64,000 nt of DNA from NCBI RefSeq assembly GCF_006714895.1, contig NZ_VFME01000001.1, positions 1,116,001 through 1,180,000 of the forward strand, given 5' to 3'. The stretch is from Gramella sp. Hel_I_59. GTDB lineage: Bacteria; Bacteroidota; Bacteroidia; Flavobacteriales; Flavobacteriaceae. The stretch's first letter is position 1. Each line of letters opens with the position of its first letter. Made by a program: the position numbers and the translations under genes. The notes beneath the pieces were generated by a model that was not told where the DNA came from, did not search any database, and saw only the letters and a list, made by a program, of their open reading frames with translations. Shown here in pieces: positions 49,670 to 58,060 of this stretch.

Positions 49670-51274
49670 TTACCTAACAAGTGAAAAATGACCCTTAAAT
49701 TCCTGACCAGTTTGTAGTAAGACTCGAAACCAGTAGTCATCTGCCGGCATAGGCTGACCATCAAATGTACCGTCCCAACCTTTGTCTGCCGCAGTTAGTT
49801 TTGATATTAATTTTCCGTAGCGGTCAAATATGCTAATCTTATTGGAGGCAGCTGTTTCGCTGCTAATGCCTTCTAACTGCCAGAAATCATTGATGCCATC
49901 CTGATTGGGAGTAAAAAAGTTATCATACCCAATAATGGCAATTTGTGTTTTGATAATCGCACACTGCTTTAGATCACGGATGTAAAGATCCTGAAAACCG
50001 GAGTTTACATTCTCGAAAATTGTACTTGTTTGAAATGGACCATTTTCGTTGCCTATGGAATATTCATATGATTCTGCATTTGGGAAGTTAATTTCTACAG
50101 TATTACTATTTGAATTGATAACAGGCTGAACGAGTGAAAAGCTTTCCACATTGGGAGGTTCATTTAGAATAAGTTCGATTCTCGTGATATTGAAGCAATC
50201 AGGATTTCCTGCTTCGGAAGTTCTTGCAAACAGGCTTTCTGCTCCTGCTGAAGTATACAAACTTGAAATAGCGTTGGAATTTTCCCGGGCGGCATTTTCC
50301 GAAGTGAAAAAGGCGATATCGTGAGCTCCATTGATACCGTTCAGAATTTCGTTATTTAGATCACTTAATTCGTAGTCAGCGAGATTATTCTTGTCCAGAT
50401 CGCATTGCTCAAATTCTAAATCTTGGGCAACCAGAGGTCCATCATTGATAGTAAGGGTGAAATCTGTGATTTTTGAACAACCGGTAAGATCATTTTCAAT
50501 TCTGGCAAAAATTGATCTACTTGGGACATTACTGGTGTAACTATCGCTCAAAGCATTAATACCATCAGTAGCATCGGCAATGGTCTCATGGTAAGTTAGA
50601 GTAGTGCTATTCTGGATATTGATTACAGGTGTATTCTGGCTAAGATCGAAAATCGCGCTGCCGTTCGCATTACAGGTTTCCAGGTCCATGCCTTCATTGT
50701 ATTGAGGGCCATCTGGAAAAGGAAAGCCGCCGGTAGTAGCTGTTCCTGTCCACTCCAGTTCAAACGGACTGTTTCCCACAGGTCTGTCTATCACGATAAA
50801 ATAGGTTTCGCCGGGCTGTACATCGAGATTTGCAACAAAGCTATCACCATCTGGCCCAGGTCCTTCACTTGTTTCTGTTGACCTAGCGTTTAAACCGGTG
50901 AAATTGGATCCTAAACCGGCGGCATTAGGATTCGTGGTAGAACAGCGAATTGCGTTTCCAAGGTTGTTACAGCTGGTATTCGGACCAAAAATAAAGAAAT
51001 CGTAATCTACATTGATATCGCTGCTGGTAGGTTTTAAATTGAAGCCTAATGATCCCGCTTTGGTGATTTCGATCTCCAGCCAGAGGGAGTTAGTCTCCTG
51101 GCTTGCACAATTGTTGGTACCATTGAGTTCCTGGGTGCCTATGCCATCTGCATTGCTGGAAATCCTGCCATCGCCACAAATTTTAATCGCTCCACTACAA
51201 TCGCTTACAGGATTCTGAGCCCAGGAAAGTGTAGGGAACGTAAGAAAGAGAATTAAAATTCTTAATAATTTCAT
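49670..51274 (-). CDS. T9SS type B sorting-domain secreted protein (534 aa)
   Basis: 534 residues. Signal peptide MKLLRILILFLTFPTLSWAQ. An N-terminal Cys-rich start (DCSGAIKICGDG) leads a large beta-sandwich region of unknown fold. The last ~85 residues are a type B CTD (FFTPNQDGINDFW ... IFDRYGKLI ... KGWDGTFDGQPMPADDYWF ... KGHFSLVR), the type IX secretion signal of Bacteroidota gliding and surface proteins. It would be secreted to the cell surface. It starts 1 base before the next T9SS gene stops and is co-transcribed with it. Confidence 0.9.
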   Translation of the reverse strand: MKLLRILILFLTFPTLSWAQNPVSDCSGAIKICGDGRISSNADGIGTQELNGTNNCASQETNSLWLEIEITKAGSLGFNLKPTSSDINVDYDFFIFGPNTSCNNLGNAIRCSTTNPNAAGLGSNFTGLNARSTETSEGPGPDGDSFVANLDVQPGETYFIVIDRPVGNSPFELEWTGTATTGGFPFPDGPQYNEGMDLETCNANGSAIFDLSQNTPVINIQNSTTLTYHETIADATDGINALSDSYTSNVPSRSIFARIENDLTGCSKITDFTLTINDGPLVAQDLEFEQCDLDKNNLADYELSDLNNEILNGINGAHDIAFFTSENAARENSNAISSLYTSAGAESLFARTSEAGNPDCFNITRIELILNEPPNVESFSLVQPVINSNSNTVEINFPNAESYEYSIGNENGPFQTSTIFENVNSGFQDLYIRDLKQCAIIKTQIAIIGYDNFFTPNQDGINDFWQLEGISSETAASNKISIFDRYGKLISKLTAADKGWDGTFDGQPMPADDYWFRVLLQTGQEFKGHFSLVR

Positions 51275-51275
51275 G

Positions 51276-54032
51276 TTATTCTCTTATAAGGGAGAAATGT
51301 CCTTTAAAAACCTTACCATTTTCGAGACTTACTTCAAACCAGTAATCATCTGCCGGCATCGGCCTGCCGTTAAAGTTGCCATCCCAACCTTTAGTTTCTC
51401 TGGGAAGCATGGCTACGATCTTTCCATACCGATCAAAAATTATAATTTTCTGAAATTTAAATCCGGGTTCAGAAATATCGTAGGGCCTCCAAAGATCATT
51501 CGAACCATCATTGTTTGGAGTGAAAAACGGCGGATGACCATATAAAGAAACCTGCATTTCGCCAGTCGAACATCCCATGCTGTTCTTAACATAAACAGTA
51601 TGTTGCCCTCCGGGAACTCCTCGAAATTCCGGATTAGATTGATAGGGTCCATTGATATTATCAAGGGCATAAACCGTATTTTCATCGGTTGAATAGGTAA
51701 AAATTAAGAGATCATTTTCGCTGCCGTTATTGGAAATCTCTATTTCAGAAATTTCAGGAGCTTCAAATTTTTCGACATTGAATTCGATTGATCTTCCGCA
51801 GCCAGATTCCTTTAATGTAAGGCTTAACGAATAGCTGCCAGAATCGTTAACGGCGATAGTTCTACCAGTTTCGCCGGTACTCCATGTGTAATCGAATTCT
51901 TCAGGATTAGGAAGATCAAGGTCATTACCTAGAATTACCGGGAAATCTGCTGCACATCCATTCAGGCTCATCAAGGATTGAACTGCCGGGAAACCGGTCA
52001 TTTCCAAATCTATACTTCCAAATCCATAGCAAATATTATCTGCATCTGCCCGAATATATAAGGTTTTTGGGCTTGTAACATAATTATCAGGCAACGCATT
52101 AGTGCCAAGAATCGCATCATCTTCAGAAGTATGAAAGCTCAGCTGAACATCAGAATTTGAGCCAAGATCGTTTCTTGCATTTTCAGCAATAGTACCCAGA
52201 TTATATTCAGCCGTACCATCTCCCAGATCACAGCCTGTAGCTGTTTCCAGTGATAGATCTACACTTTCAGTAGTTTGAAGTCTGAAGCTTTCTATATCAT
52301 AACAATCACTTCCGAAGCCACTAATTTTCACAAAAACCTTCTCATTAGGAGCATTGTTCCGGTAGATGTTATCCAGGGTAAGTTCGTTGTTCACATCGGC
52401 AATGGCATCTGCCTCACTTCCGTAGAAAAAAAGCTGAATACCCGATTGACCCTGTGATAACTCTTCCTTCGCAAGCTGAAGATTAAAAGTTGCAATTCCA
52501 TCGGTTGGATCTGAATCCTGAACATCACATTGTTTCAGAATAAAATCTGATGGTACATTGGGAATTTTAAAAATGGTCACTTCTTCGCAAACCGGATCCT
52601 GAGGAATTCCATTGATGATCCCTGTAAGACTCACCGTGTAAGTTCCTGCTGCACTGTAAACATGCATAGGTGCTGAGGCAGTTGAGGTGGCACCATCTCC
52701 AAACTCCCACATAAAAGAATCATATTTCGAGGCATCTCCTGCGGTAAATTCTGTAGTCTGTCCCAGGCAGATATTCTCATATTCAAAATTATTGTTGAAA
52801 AGCGACTGTACAAATGGGGGCAGACCGAGTCTAACGACTTTGGGAGAAATATCTAAACTGTTGTGTCGGTAATTTACGTTTGCAGCGTCTTCTTCCGGTT
52901 CGTTGATCACAGACATCAAGTTCCATCTAACGAAGCCACCATCAGTAGAGTAACCAGCGCGATATATCTTACCATTAGGTGCTAACTGTAAGGCTCCAGC
53001 AACATTCCTGGAGGAATTTATCAAAGTAGCTGAAGAAGCAATATCTGTAGCTTGGAGATCAAATTGATATAATTCACCATTTTGTAACACATCTTCTGTA
53101 TTATAATTATTGGAAGTTGCGTAGAGTTTTGTGGATTCCGGAGAAAATTCCACGCCGTATGGATAGGCATTGGCCAGAAGCAATTTTTCGTTGGAAACTC
53201 TACCACTAAGATCATTGAAATCGTAGAGAAATACCTTTCCAGTTTTCTTAGCACCTCCGGAACGCGGACTCCCAATACTGGTTCCACTATAAGCCGCAGC
53301 CAGATAATTTCCATCTGGAGAGATCTTCATATAGCCAGGAGCTGTAACGTTTAGATCCTGTTCGTTGATCCTGGGAGGAAAATTATTATTGATAGTGGAA
53401 ATCACTGCGCTCGTATTTACTCCTGCGGAACTTACTCTAAATGAGTAGAATTTATTAGTAAACTGAGTGACCACCCAGTACGAAACACAATCTCCCGCGA
53501 TGACTGCGGAAATCTTTTCAGAACTTTTGAATTCTTTTTCCACGGGATCTGAAGGATCGTAGGTAACCAGATGAGTATTCTTAGTACCTGTTATAAGGCC
53601 ACCATTTCCATTGTCAAGACTCATGTCTACTTCAGAAAAATGAACACCTTCAATAGGATCGTTAGTGACCCGAAAGTAATCTGGTTTATCCACTGTAAAA
53701 ATATAATAGAACCCGGGATTTGCAGGCTTCGGAACAATGATCGCCGATTGCGTACTGGAAACATTTCCTTTAAGATCACTCCCATTCAACATCACCTGAT
53801 GATTGCGATTGTAAACTGTAGAACCATCAGTATAAAAAAGCAGATTTCCGTTTCTGTCTGAGATACTTGCAGAACCTTCGATAGTGTTTAGAACTCCATT
53901 GGTAAGCGGAACAGCCTCGCCTGAAGTAAAGGATAACCCAGCGCCAACGCCAAAATACCAGTTTGCTGCTTCCTGCTGGCCGTACATGAGTGTCGGCAGC
54001 AGGAATATGGCAAGGATCACTTTCAACTTCAT
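51276..54032 (-). CDS. T9SS type B sorting-domain secreted protein with PKD domain (918 aa)
   Basis: 918 residues. A signal peptide (MKLKVILAIFLLPTLMYGQ) is followed by a WD40-like/beta-propeller-like region (NLLFYTDGSTVYN, PDGNYLAAAYSG). A PKD domain (about 420-490: SFMWEFGDGATSTASAP) and further beta-sandwich modules come next, then a type B CTD ending KGHFSLIRE. It should be a large surface adhesin or biofilm/gliding protein. Its C-terminus is strikingly similar to the 534-residue neighbour, so both use the same export route. Confidence 0.9.
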   Translation of the reverse strand: MKLKVILAIFLLPTLMYGQQEAANWYFGVGAGLSFTSGEAVPLTNGVLNTIEGSASISDRNGNLLFYTDGSTVYNRNHQVMLNGSDLKGNVSSTQSAIIVPKPANPGFYYIFTVDKPDYFRVTNDPIEGVHFSEVDMSLDNGNGGLITGTKNTHLVTYDPSDPVEKEFKSSEKISAVIAGDCVSYWVVTQFTNKFYSFRVSSAGVNTSAVISTINNNFPPRINEQDLNVTAPGYMKISPDGNYLAAAYSGTSIGSPRSGGAKKTGKVFLYDFNDLSGRVSNEKLLLANAYPYGVEFSPESTKLYATSNNYNTEDVLQNGELYQFDLQATDIASSATLINSSRNVAGALQLAPNGKIYRAGYSTDGGFVRWNLMSVINEPEEDAANVNYRHNSLDISPKVVRLGLPPFVQSLFNNNFEYENICLGQTTEFTAGDASKYDSFMWEFGDGATSTASAPMHVYSAAGTYTVSLTGIINGIPQDPVCEEVTIFKIPNVPSDFILKQCDVQDSDPTDGIATFNLQLAKEELSQGQSGIQLFFYGSEADAIADVNNELTLDNIYRNNAPNEKVFVKISGFGSDCYDIESFRLQTTESVDLSLETATGCDLGDGTAEYNLGTIAENARNDLGSNSDVQLSFHTSEDDAILGTNALPDNYVTSPKTLYIRADADNICYGFGSIDLEMTGFPAVQSLMSLNGCAADFPVILGNDLDLPNPEEFDYTWSTGETGRTIAVNDSGSYSLSLTLKESGCGRSIEFNVEKFEAPEISEIEISNNGSENDLLIFTYSTDENTVYALDNINGPYQSNPEFRGVPGGQHTVYVKNSMGCSTGEMQVSLYGHPPFFTPNNDGSNDLWRPYDISEPGFKFQKIIIFDRYGKIVAMLPRETKGWDGNFNGRPMPADDYWFEVSLENGKVFKGHFSLIRE

Positions 54033-54057: not shown

Positions 54058-54894
54058 CTATAAATCACGCTTCTTAAGTAGAAATAATGAAAGGTATACA
54101 AATATGAAAACCCAGGCGATCACAATGAGTAACTGGTACCAGTGGATGCCATAATCTTTATCTAATTCTCCACCAATCTGGTTGGCTGCTGCTTGTACCG
54201 CATTCAACCTGGAGAATGGTTCTACAACAAGATTACTCATTGACTCCAGAGGGAAAAACTGCATAATATTGGTGGCAATATCGGTTCCTTTGAAGACCTT
54301 GAAATTAAGAACGCCATAAAGAATGCTTTCAAAAATGGCCCAGACTACCAGGAATCCTAGTGCAAATGCAGATCTTTTGATCAGTATTCCAAGAAACATA
54401 CAGAATGCAAAGAATCCGGTTAGCTTAACAAAATAAGCCAGCAGATATTCCAGGTCTGAAACTACTATAGAAAATTCAGTAAAATCTGAAAAGGAGTAGC
54501 CAAGGATAATAGTTACTATAAAAAGGAAGATCGTAGATATTCCAGAAAACACCAGTACAGTGAGAAATTTGGAAAGAATAAATTCCTTTTTACTCAATCC
54601 ATCAATAAGATTCTGTTTGATCGTACGGTTGCTGTATTCGTTCGACATCATGGAAACGATGACGATCGCAAGAAAGATCTTTAGCAGTGCAGCGATATAA
54701 CTATTAAAATGCCATATATAAGGAAAATTAAATATTCCCTGGTCTGCAACTCTAAACTGTATCTGGCCAATATTAAATTCAATAGAGGCGATAAGGGCAA
54801 TAAATGTGATGAGTATAAAATATGTGATGATCAGGATCCTGGCAGATCTGCTATATCGTAATTTATTGTATTCTATTTCAAGTAAACGTAACAT
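54058..54894 (-). CDS. ABC-2 type transporter permease
   Basis: 278 residues, six membrane helices with a large extracellular-like loop after the first. EYNKLRYSRSARILI start and the NEYSNRTIKQNLIDGLSKKEFI motif are typical of ABC-2 export permeases. It overlaps the ATPase gene by one base (TAATG) and forms its transport partner. Substrate unknown. It ends 25 bases before the PKD-containing T9SS gene. Confidence 0.9.
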   Translation of the reverse strand: MLRLLEIEYNKLRYSRSARILIITYFILITFIALIASIEFNIGQIQFRVADQGIFNFPYIWHFNSYIAALLKIFLAIVIVSMMSNEYSNRTIKQNLIDGLSKKEFILSKFLTVLVFSGISTIFLFIVTIILGYSFSDFTEFSIVVSDLEYLLAYFVKLTGFFAFCMFLGILIKRSAFALGFLVVWAIFESILYGVLNFKVFKGTDIATNIMQFFPLESMSNLVVEPFSRLNAVQAAANQIGGELDKDYGIHWYQLLIVIAWVFIFVYLSLFLLKKRDL

Positions 54895-55799
54895 TATGCT
54901 TCGGCGGTTTGGTTGGTTAATTGAAGGAATTGTTCTTCCAGGCTTTCTTTACGCTTTATCAAAAATGATAAGGACAAGCCCTGGTCAAATAAATAGCGGT
55001 TGATTTCTTCTGCTTCCATTGGTTCGTCGATGAAAGCAGTAAGCATTCCTTCTTTATCAGTGATTTTGCCAATTTTAGGATGCCTTTCAAGCAATTCCTG
55101 AAGTCTTATCATGTTGCCGGCTTTCAGTTCAAAGAATCCGTGGCTGCTAACGATTTCGTCAACGGGACCGCTATATAGTTTTACGCCTTTCCGAATGATA
55201 ACTACATGAGAACAAACCTTTTCCACTTCATCAAGTAAATGTGATGCCAGTAAAATGGTAGTTCCAGCAGAGGCGATCTTTCTTATGATCTCCCTAATCT
55301 GGTGAATTCCCTGTGGATCGAGTCCGTTTGTAGGTTCATCCAGAATTAAGATTTCAGGATCGTTAAGCAGAGCAGAAGCAATAGCCAGACGTTGTTTCAT
55401 TCCTAGCGAAAAAGTTTTGAACTTACTATCCTTTCTGTCGAGCAGACCCACGATCTCCAGTTTCTCCTGAACCTTTGCTTTGTTTGTGCCTTTAATCTTA
55501 CAAACCAGGGCCAGATTTTGTGCCGCGGTCATATAAGGGTAAAAGTTAGGATGCTCGATAATGGCGCCCACCTTTTTTAGAGCATTATGTGTAGAGGTGT
55601 TGCCATCGAACCAGCGAAAATCGCCTGAAGTTTTGTTCACGACATTAAGAACCATTCCAAGCGTAGTGGATTTACCGCTTCCGTTGGGTCCAAGTATACC
55701 GTAGACGTTCCCTTTTTCAATGCTGAAACTCAGGTTGTCCACGGCGGTCATTCCGCCAAATTTTTTGGTAAGATTGTTTAGTGTTAGTATTGTTTCCAA
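54894..55799 (-). CDS. ABC transporter ATP-binding protein (export)
   Basis: 301 residues. Walker A GPNGSGKST, Q-loop, signature FSLGMKQRLAIASALL, Walker B LILDEPTNGLD, and the switch His in LLASHLLDEVEK. It powers the adjacent ABC-2 permease. A C-terminal region (about 220-301) of the multidrug or bacitracin-exporter-like type follows. Likely an exporter of lipids, drugs or peptides; not specific. Confidence 0.95.
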   Translation of the reverse strand: METILTLNNLTKKFGGMTAVDNLSFSIEKGNVYGILGPNGSGKSTTLGMVLNVVNKTSGDFRWFDGNTSTHNALKKVGAIIEHPNFYPYMTAAQNLALVCKIKGTNKAKVQEKLEIVGLLDRKDSKFKTFSLGMKQRLAIASALLNDPEILILDEPTNGLDPQGIHQIREIIRKIASAGTTILLASHLLDEVEKVCSHVVIIRKGVKLYSGPVDEIVSSHGFFELKAGNMIRLQELLERHPKIGKITDKEGMLTAFIDEPMEAEEINRYLFDQGLSLSFLIKRKESLEEQFLQLTNQTAEA

Positions 55800-55867: not shown

Positions 55868-55875
55868 TATTTTTG
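55868..55875 (+). promoter_or_regulatory. Putative -7 box upstream of kinase-like gene
   Basis: TATTTTTG matches TAnnTTTG exactly, 18 bases before the ATG at 55894. The -33 TTG is not at a good distance (nearest TTG is 24 bases upstream). Confidence 0.35.
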
Positions 55876-55893: not shown

Positions 55894-56958
55894 ATGGAAG
55901 AAAAACTGATGTCACAAAAGAAGCCGGCGTTCCCCGTGAACGAACGCTTTAACCGTTATCTTCAGAAATATAACCGTAATACTAAGATTCCAGTTTTTTA
56001 TGATGATCTCCTCAGATTTTCAGGTTCTATAGTGGTGTACGATCAGCATGATGAGGATACGTTCTGGGTGCGTTGTTATTATCCCGAATTTGAACGTGTA
56101 GAGATCGATAACAGTCTTAAAAAGGTATATACCATCCTACACTCCGATGGTAGTGACGATTCTCTTAATTATCTAAATGTCGATGCGATCGACTATTGCA
56201 CCTTCGGAAATTCAAAACCCTTCAGAATAAAAGTCCGGAATATTCTCAATGATAGTTTCACCTATTTCTATGTGAAAAAAGCTGATGCCTCCAGGTTATA
56301 CGGACTTGAATTTGAGCATTTACTTTCTCCACATAGGATCAATTTTCTGGTATATAAAGACACTTTGATTGAGGAGCATATTGCAGGAATTCCCGGCGAT
56401 GTGTTTATTGAAGACCATTTACCAAAATGTGATCTTCGGGCACAAACCCAGATCGCCAAGCAGTTCGTAAAGTTCAATGAACGCTGTACCGTGCGTTTAT
56501 TAGGAGATATGAGATCTTATAATTACGTGGTGATCCCAACTCATGATTTCGACCATGTGGAGTATCAGATTCGGGCGATCGATTTTGATCAGCAGTGTTT
56601 CGAGGGTAATTTAAAAGTATACCGTCCCCAGTTTTTTAAAGAGAACTTCCAGATGGTGCAACTGGTTTCAGATAAACTTGAAAACTCATCTATAGAACAA
56701 TACAGAAAAGAAGAGCGTTCCTTGCTGGCTAAGAGAATGATCAATACCCAAAGCAGGTATAAAGAGCTCATTCGCTGTATGATCAATGACCACGTTTCTA
56801 CTAAGGATAATGTGAAAATGCTTAGAAATCAACTATATGCCTTTTCTAAGGATATGAAGTTTAAAAGGGCAAGTACCATGGGACAGATCCTGCGAACCGC
56901 GCTGGATTTCGTGAGAAGAAATTATGAAAATGTAAATACTCAACGTATGCTGGATTAA
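55894..56958 (+). CDS. Uncharacterised protein with protein-kinase-like fold motifs
   Basis: 354 residues from ATG 55894 (an upstream in-frame TTG at 55873 is less likely). I do not recognise a named family. Motifs appear in the order of a kinase/aminoglycoside-kinase fold: YFYVKK (Lys128-129, beta3-like), LEFEHLL (Glu139 or 141, helix C-like), LIEEHIAGIPGD (hinge-like, 158-169), LLGDMRSYN (catalytic-loop-like Asp205 and Asn210; His is Leu or Gly), and AIDFDQQ (DFG-like Asp230, 228-234). A ~110-residue N-terminal extra domain precedes them and a helical C-terminus follows. Own terminator. Function unknown; the fold is inference. Confidence 0.7.
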   Translation: MEEKLMSQKKPAFPVNERFNRYLQKYNRNTKIPVFYDDLLRFSGSIVVYDQHDEDTFWVRCYYPEFERVEIDNSLKKVYTILHSDGSDDSLNYLNVDAIDYCTFGNSKPFRIKVRNILNDSFTYFYVKKADASRLYGLEFEHLLSPHRINFLVYKDTLIEEHIAGIPGDVFIEDHLPKCDLRAQTQIAKQFVKFNERCTVRLLGDMRSYNYVVIPTHDFDHVEYQIRAIDFDQQCFEGNLKVYRPQFFKENFQMVQLVSDKLENSSIEQYRKEERSLLAKRMINTQSRYKELIRCMINDHVSTKDNVKMLRNQLYAFSKDMKFKRASTMGQILRTALDFVRRNYENVNTQRMLD

Positions 56959-57001: not shown

Positions 57002-58060
57002 CTATTTCTTTTCCTCTTTGTTGAAGTAAACGAGATAATAATACATCTGCTTATCTTCGTCCCAACCTTTTTCCACGAATTTTTCAGCCGACTCTGCGCT
57101 AACAAAATCCATCTTGATCTGGATGTTCGTATCTAAGGTGATCACGTTTTTGATCTTCTTACGTGCATCTGTCACCGCTTTGTTGGCGATGGGAAAACTG
57201 GTGAGATCTTCAACTTTATATTTTGGAGCTTTTTCAGTTTTATAATTCTGAAATTCAGGGATAAGATCTGGATTATCGATCACAGAATTGATGTAATTTG
57301 ACTCCTCGAAGTCATCGTTCTTAGCGAAGTAATCCATACTTCGGTTCATGAACATTACTTCCTGTTTTTTATCTTCCGCAGGCAATACCACGTCCTTCGC
57401 AAAATTCTTGGCAAAGTTGAGGTAATTCTTAGTGAAATAATTCTCATCTGCCAGCACATCTACTCCTAAAAAGTTTTCCAACCAGTATTTCGTGTCATAG
57501 CGGTTAGAATCAACAGAAAGAATTTTAAAACCTTCAGCCTGGTTGCTATTGAAGATAATCGCGCCTTTATCCAATTTCTGCAAATTTACACCCTGCTGCA
57601 CGACCATTTCCAAATTGCTCTGGCTTTGTTCAAACTGCAGGAAATCATGCTTTAATTCAGATTTAAAAATGCCAATTGCCGGAACTTTGATGTTATCCAG
57701 TTGCATTCCTTCAAAGTAAACTACATAAACTTCACCGCTTTTAATATGCGGATGAGTAGATTGCTCATATAATAAGGTCGCTATCTTCTTGGAATATTCG
57801 TGGGTGTTATATGGATCGTCAAAGATCTTATTAGAAAGATTGTACAGCTCGTTGAACTCGATATCGGTTTCATGGTGAAAACGATAATATGATTCCTCTT
57901 TTTCGCGGAAAGGCTTCAGGAAATATTCCTTGATAAGAGGTTTGATCTCATCATCAAGTTTAAAGGTAGAAGCGGAAAGAAAGATGTTTTCACCTCGATT
58001 CTTATTTCCAACCCTGTGGATAGATAGCGATTCTATCTGCGCATTAAAAAGATTGATCAT
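57002..58060 (-). CDS. Nucleoid-associated protein (NdpA/YejK-like)
   Basis: 352 residues, no signal peptide. The layout (N-terminal LSIHRVGNKNRGE, LNIKVP-like strand VPAIGIFKSE, EGFKILSVDSNRYDTKYWLENFLGV, C-terminal RKKIKNVITLDTNIQI) fits the NA37/NdpA nucleoid-associated family, which binds DNA. It is the last gene of the long minus-strand run, 51 bases after the pRiA4b ORF-3-like gene. Confidence 0.85.
   Translation of the reverse strand: MINLFNAQIESLSIHRVGNKNRGENIFLSASTFKLDDEIKPLIKEYFLKPFREKEESYYRFHHETDIEFNELYNLSNKIFDDPYNTHEYSKKIATLLYEQSTHPHIKSGEVYVVYFEGMQLDNIKVPAIGIFKSELKHDFLQFEQSQSNLEMVVQQGVNLQKLDKGAIIFNSNQAEGFKILSVDSNRYDTKYWLENFLGVDVLADENYFTKNYLNFAKNFAKDVVLPAEDKKQEVMFMNRSMDYFAKNDDFEESNYINSVIDNPDLIPEFQNYKTEKAPKYKVEDLTSFPIANKAVTDARKKIKNVITLDTNIQIKMDFVSAESAEKFVEKGWDEDKQMYYYLVYFNKEEKK

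Follow-up and report, generated by a model that had tools for sequence, protein, structure and literature searches.

A putative phosphotransferase family of the Bacteroidota with a predicted protein-kinase-like fold

The PI3/PI4-kinases and PIKKs (PF00454), which include VPS34, PI4KIII-beta, mTOR and SMG1, are known mainly from eukaryotes. In VPS34 the beta3 lysine is followed by an aspartate at +3 and an arginine at +6 (K-H-G-D-D-L-R), and the catalytic loop reads G-V-G-D-R-H-L-D-N. Related patterns occur elsewhere in the protein-kinase-like superfamily: GDxHxxN followed by IDF(D) in APH (PF01636), and D-x-H-x-G-N followed by IDF in ABC1/UbiB proteins (PF03109). Here we describe a 354-residue protein encoded by an open reading frame that runs from an ATG at 55894..56958 (+ strand) in a 64,000-nucleotide stretch of the Gramella sp. 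Hel_I_59 genome (contig NZ_VFME01000001.1, positions 1,116,001 to 1,180,000), hereafter the window, whose coordinates are used throughout. Its K-x-x-D-x-x-R and L-L-G-D-M-R/H-x-x-N motifs have the same spacing as those of VPS34. From its sequence and a predicted structure, the protein is likely to be a soluble, cytosolic ATP-dependent phosphotransferase that forms a family of its own within the superfamily and whose architecture most resembles that of PI3/PI4-kinase-type enzymes.

Predicted fold and conserved active-site residues

An initial annotation of this DNA had proposed a cryptic kinase-like fold from five motifs, YFYVKK, LEFEHLL, LIEEHIAGIPGD, LLGDMRSYN and AIDFDQQ, all of which are present in this order in the translation. 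An alignment-based AlphaFold2 model predicts such a fold with confidence, comprising an N-lobe sheet, helix C, a hinge and a helical C-lobe, and a Foldseek search with this model matched kinase-like structures, supporting a protein-kinase-like superfamily fold; no non-kinase architecture was predicted. A model from the single sequence (predicted local distance difference test score, pLDDT, 35.5) was discarded. According to DSSP, the predicted N-lobe spans residues 94-163 (56173..56382, + strand), with strands 94-102, 110-116 and 121-129, helix 132-144, and strands 151-154 and 157-161; this last hinge strand is followed by helix 168-178. The helical remainder of the C-lobe and the C-terminal helices occupy residues 240-353 (56611..56952, +). 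Ahead of the N-lobe lies an extension of residues 1-93 (55894..56172, +), with modelled helices 17-25 and 36-39, strands 44-49 and 55-62, helices 65-84 and 88-93, and an invariant Lys10; it probably packs on the N-lobe. The annotation had foreseen an N-terminal domain of about 110 residues and unknown fold: the extra part exists, but it measures about 93 residues, strands 94-102 and 110-116 being part of the N-lobe.

Conservation was assessed in 369 distinct member strings, which remained from 143 matching loci and 240 search proteins once identical strings had been removed. Some genes may be counted two times in this set, once at full length and once trimmed, and it is weighted to Flavobacteriaceae because searches list best hits. 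Invariant columns number 34 of 354, and among the residues that never vary are Asp131, Arg134, Gly137, Glu160, His162, Gly165, Leu203, Gly204, Phe231, Asp232 and Gln233. The four positions predicted to be catalytic, Lys128, Asp205, Asn210 and Asp230, are likewise identical in 369/369 members; the naive chance of all four falling on invariant columns is ~7e-5, ignoring the prior choice of active-site-type residues.

These residues occupy the expected elements of the model. Lys128 (56275..56277, +) lies in strand 121-129 and is the candidate beta3 lysine; the annotation had named the pair Lys128/129, of which Lys129 is variable (lysine in 217/369) and so drops out. With Asp131 and Arg134 (56284..56295, +) it makes up the K-x-x-D-x-x-R motif. 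The helix-C glutamate placed in LEFEHLL is accounted for by Glu141 (368/369, one Asp) and Glu139 (363/369, the others Asp), both within helix 132-144 (56308..56316, +). The hinge region (56365..56400, +) contains Glu160, His162 and Gly165. The catalytic loop, L203-G-D205-M-[R/H]-x-x-N210 (56500..56523, +), has Met206 in 368/369 members and, as first noted, lacks the HxD histidine, position 203 being leucine throughout. It is followed by the DFG-like I-D230-F-D-Q-Q (56578..56595, +), with the presumed metal-binding Asp230. Position 207 is arginine in 358/369 members and histidine in the other 11 (L115, L117, L118, L135 and L137-L143), giving loops such as GDMHSGN and GDMHAGN that are closer to the D-x-H-x-x-N of other kinases. 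Seven of the 11 come from outside the window's class and are all the loci gathered from there (L137-L143), while the remaining four belong to two other families inside the class. The switch falls where PI3Ks have the histidine of their DRH motif.

In the mechanism we propose, Lys128, held by Glu141 (or Glu139), would orient the ATP phosphates, Asp230 and Asn210 would hold Mg, and Asp205 would orient or deprotonate the acceptor hydroxyl. Asp131 and Arg134 may work as they do in the PI3/4K K-x-x-D-x-x-R signature. Kinase folds with non-phosphorylating chemistry exist, however, SelO transferring AMP and SidJ catalysing glutamylation, and the invariant Arg134, Glu160, His162 and Gln233 are unusual in lying off the kinase canon, as might be expected of a fold turned to such chemistry or serving as a pseudokinase scaffold. 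Pseudokinases usually lose part of the catalytic set, whereas here the K, E, D, N, D set is complete, with zero exceptions at Lys128, Asp205, Asn210 and Asp230, and we regard this alternative as unlikely. No sequence relation to SelO (UPF0061) is detectable by Pfam. SelO itself is a precedent, a domain of unknown function placed in the kinase-like group by remote methods at borderline significance (PMC3281104); one figure legend elsewhere colours families by glutamylation and AMPylation (PMC9758233).

Affinity to the PI3/PI4-kinases and to other branches

The likeness to PI3/PI4-kinases comes chiefly from structural comparison. When Foldseek's 1000 best chains, and only these, were re-ranked with VIA-align, PI3/4Ks and PIKKs received the highest scores among the entries listed and made up all of the best 50 (50/50), which held no UbiB, APH, RIO, Fam20 or HipA entry. 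The alignments to PI3/4Ks begin at model residues 15-33, inside the N-terminal extension. The family and the PI3/4Ks both have a G-D-x-[H/R]-x-x-N loop without the HxD histidine, followed by I-D-F, so the missing histidine is not strange, since the top-ranked group also lacks it. The counterparts reported for yeast Tel1 are K2465, D2612-R-H2614, N2617 and D2631 (PMC6945111). The family differs in reading D-M-R-x-x-N (358/369) or D-M-H-x-x-N (11/369) where PI3/4Ks have D-R-H-x-x-N, in having D-F-D in 369/369 members rather than D-F-G, and in being a stand-alone protein of 354 residues, unlike PI3/4Ks and PIKKs.

Several other results do not support this affinity. Foldseek's own E-value order begins with protein kinases, not PI3/4Ks. 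PF00454 matches neither the window protein nor anything in its own genome, and it passes the cut-off in 0/296 genomes of the phylum; weak matches below the cut-off occur in 12/296, and the open reading frames at four such loci are, judged by eye, presumably HipA-like. Profile alignment with hhalign against a PI3K profile of 120 sequences scored 14.0, out of register and within the range of negative controls from 15 neighbour families (13.0 to 20.2 at full length), with a shallow family profile (Neff 2.75); the core alone scored 14.3, against 19.6 for the best control. The PI3/4K resemblance, backed by two motif spacings and by the order of the VIA-align scores and unsupported by sequence profiles, is the most interesting lead. 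Taken furthest, it would make the family an ancient bacterial offshoot of the PI3/PI4-kinase/PIKK lineage, passed on vertically: a single-copy core gene of Flavobacteriaceae and other Bacteroidota families, encoding a small, free-standing enzyme with Arg/His at the DRH position and a non-inositol-lipid substrate, a minimal relative of the PI3K/mTOR signalling enzymes. We put this forward tentatively, as a possibility with the odds against it. Separately, a viral-collection contig (L209, 7049-7720, - strand) encodes a 223-residue protein with GDRHNGN...HIDFG, which we take to be a PI4K-like catalytic pattern.

The VIA-align ranking might instead reflect size and helices rather than ancestry, with the protein placed on the side of the APH or UbiB (ABC1) kinases. 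The GDMHSGN loop of some members and their IDFD resemble the HADPHPGN and IDFG of an ABC1/UbiB-type kinase gene inside which the window opens (3-1064, +); PF03109 has no other listed match in this genome. An hhalign comparison with ABC1 (20 sequences) covers 189 columns with the catalytic loop and DFG in register, and its core-only score of 20.8 is the highest of the set. These values nevertheless stay at control level, the full length scoring 17.3 against controls up to 20.2 and the core 20.8 against up to 19.6. ABC1 proteins have H-A-D where the family has L-G-D, and K-x-x-D-x-x-R is not seen in the window's ABC1 protein. As for APH, the family shares the overall pattern but lacks the HGD histidine (L203-G204-D205 being invariant), and the Foldseek list contains a Corramycin phosphotransferase (8agy), which we assume to be of APH type. 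The hhalign score with APH was 13.7, a weak test with a profile of only 4 sequences (4/30 loci passed the motif filter). PF01636 and PF03109 searches of the genome match other loci and not the kinase-like gene. We consider an origin on this side possible but doubtful. Because none of PI3K, ABC1 and APH separated clearly from the controls and PF00454 gave no match, the protein is not filed under PF00454, PF03109 or PF01636. Its build, as read from sequence and model, looks suited to kinase-type work, whichever branch of the superfamily it comes from.

RNA ligase is the name on several UniRef entries of the family, and the K-x-x-D at Lys128 is loosely like KxDG, the nucleotidyltransferase motif of ligases. 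The aspartate at +3 is followed by alanine (K128-x-x-D131-A132), however, so the motif is not KxDG; Pfam finds no ligase match in the window protein, 23 members, or the family consensus with four divergent members; and the AlphaFold2 model is kinase-like. A ligase is therefore very improbable.

Distribution and genomic setting

Apparently this is an uncharacterised, phylum-level family of kinase-like proteins. Pfam assigns 0 families to the window protein and no domain to any of the best 120 protein matches listed. Among 23 members Pfam gave 15 families, the best with E 0.0016 (ribbon-helix-helix, one member), and the consensus with four divergent members gave scattered weak matches; both sets were taken as chance. 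An NCBIfam MoeB match (E 0.04, far under the cut-off) was dropped. PADLOC had no match, PHROGs only two that are not credible (E 0.067 and 0.14), and PDB sequence searches nothing credible. A literature search, judged by titles and the openings of abstracts, found no paper about the family and no tested function.

The gene had been described as cryptic and unannotated; it is unnamed, yet far from rare, with at least 8000 protein matches, each at E <= 0.001. The closest among those listed, at 98% identity, is from Christiangramia portivictoriae, and 13 divergent members share 38-49% identity with the window protein. In whole-genome searches of overlapping draws, the gene occurs in 68/198 genomes of the class, 39/148 of the order and 80/296 of the phylum, including Salegentibacter, Zunongwangia, Aquimarina, Tenacibaculum, Polaribacter, Maribacter, Pontibacter and Hymenobacter. 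Within the phylum draw it is present in 29/30 genomes of the same family, its own counted, and absent from one. It is single-copy in its own genome, where a threshold of E <= 10 brings up just two further, weak matches (E 0.039 and 0.18). All 68 carriers in the class draw have a single match, which is partial in two of them, and 78 of the 80 in the phylum draw likewise have one. The exceptions are G271, with two copies (L144 8139-9236 and L145 8219-9322), and G421, where two short pieces (G421:C1:3158145-3158407), each with an in-frame stop, indicate an apparently decayed gene. The divergent L145 copy (40% identity to the window protein) keeps the catalytic residues and has Gly105 replaced by Ala. 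The gene was not found among PLSDB plasmids or INPHARED phages, and two peptide patterns retrieved no relative among 90 matching IMG/VR stretches. It looks like a chromosomal gene, inherited vertically with patchy loss.

The gene stands alone, as the annotation had described. Upstream and divergent is an ABC-2 exporter (54058-55799, - strand) identified by Pfam, consisting of a permease (54058-54894) and an ATPase (54894..55799), and downstream and convergent is a gene for an NA37 nucleoid-associated protein (57002..58060, -, by Pfam); the kinase-like gene is therefore free-standing, both neighbours lying outside the system. Relatives of the ATPase and NA37 neighbours are present at 49/80 and 46/80 Flavobacteriaceae loci, respectively. 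Outside Flavobacteriaceae, the gene itself was recovered by open reading frame picking in 17/19 loci, and no neighbour family occurs in more than 4 of the 19, so no operon partner is seen. What looked like an N-terminal fusion in L139 was rejected, having no Pfam match and appearing by eye to be a GC-rich spurious frame. An in-frame TTG at 55873 offers an alternative start that would add seven residues. A TAnnTTTG motif lies upstream (55868-55875), but the window's + strand has 31 of these in all, and nothing further upstream fitted as its partner. Elsewhere in the window, two neighbouring large secreted-looking proteins (49670-54032, -) have similar C-terminal ends (FDRYGK ... GWDG ... MPADDYWF) and are presumably type IX secretion cargo.

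Likely substrate and significance

The protein is probably soluble, since it has no strongly hydrophobic segment (top 19-residue hydropathy 0.73); its calculated isoelectric point is 8.3. A kinase acting on inositol lipids might be expected to occur together with inositol-phosphate synthase (PF07994). This synthase is found in 12/198 class genomes, four of which have the kinase-like gene, and is not found in the other 64/68 carriers, Gramella sp. Hel_I_59 included. This disfavours an inositol-lipid substrate, although carriers might salvage inositol. The likelier acceptor is a protein or soluble metabolite of core Bacteroidota physiology. COX1, present in 191/198 class genomes against 68/198 for the kinase-like gene, is so nearly universal that it gives no information on a link to oxygen.

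Overall, the predicted fold and key residues are as the initial annotation proposed, and its reading is supported. The gene is widely kept in a major phylum and has a complete, invariant kinase-type active site, and its protein matches no model in the libraries searched. Given the predicted kinase fold, the conserved active site and the lack of any library match, Bacteroidota probably have an undescribed kinase, a hypothesis directly testable in genetically tractable flavobacteria. Its presence in nearly all sampled genomes of its family points to a basic process not yet known and, if the PI3/4K resemblance reflects ancestry, the family would bear on the origin of the PI3K/PIKK enzymes.
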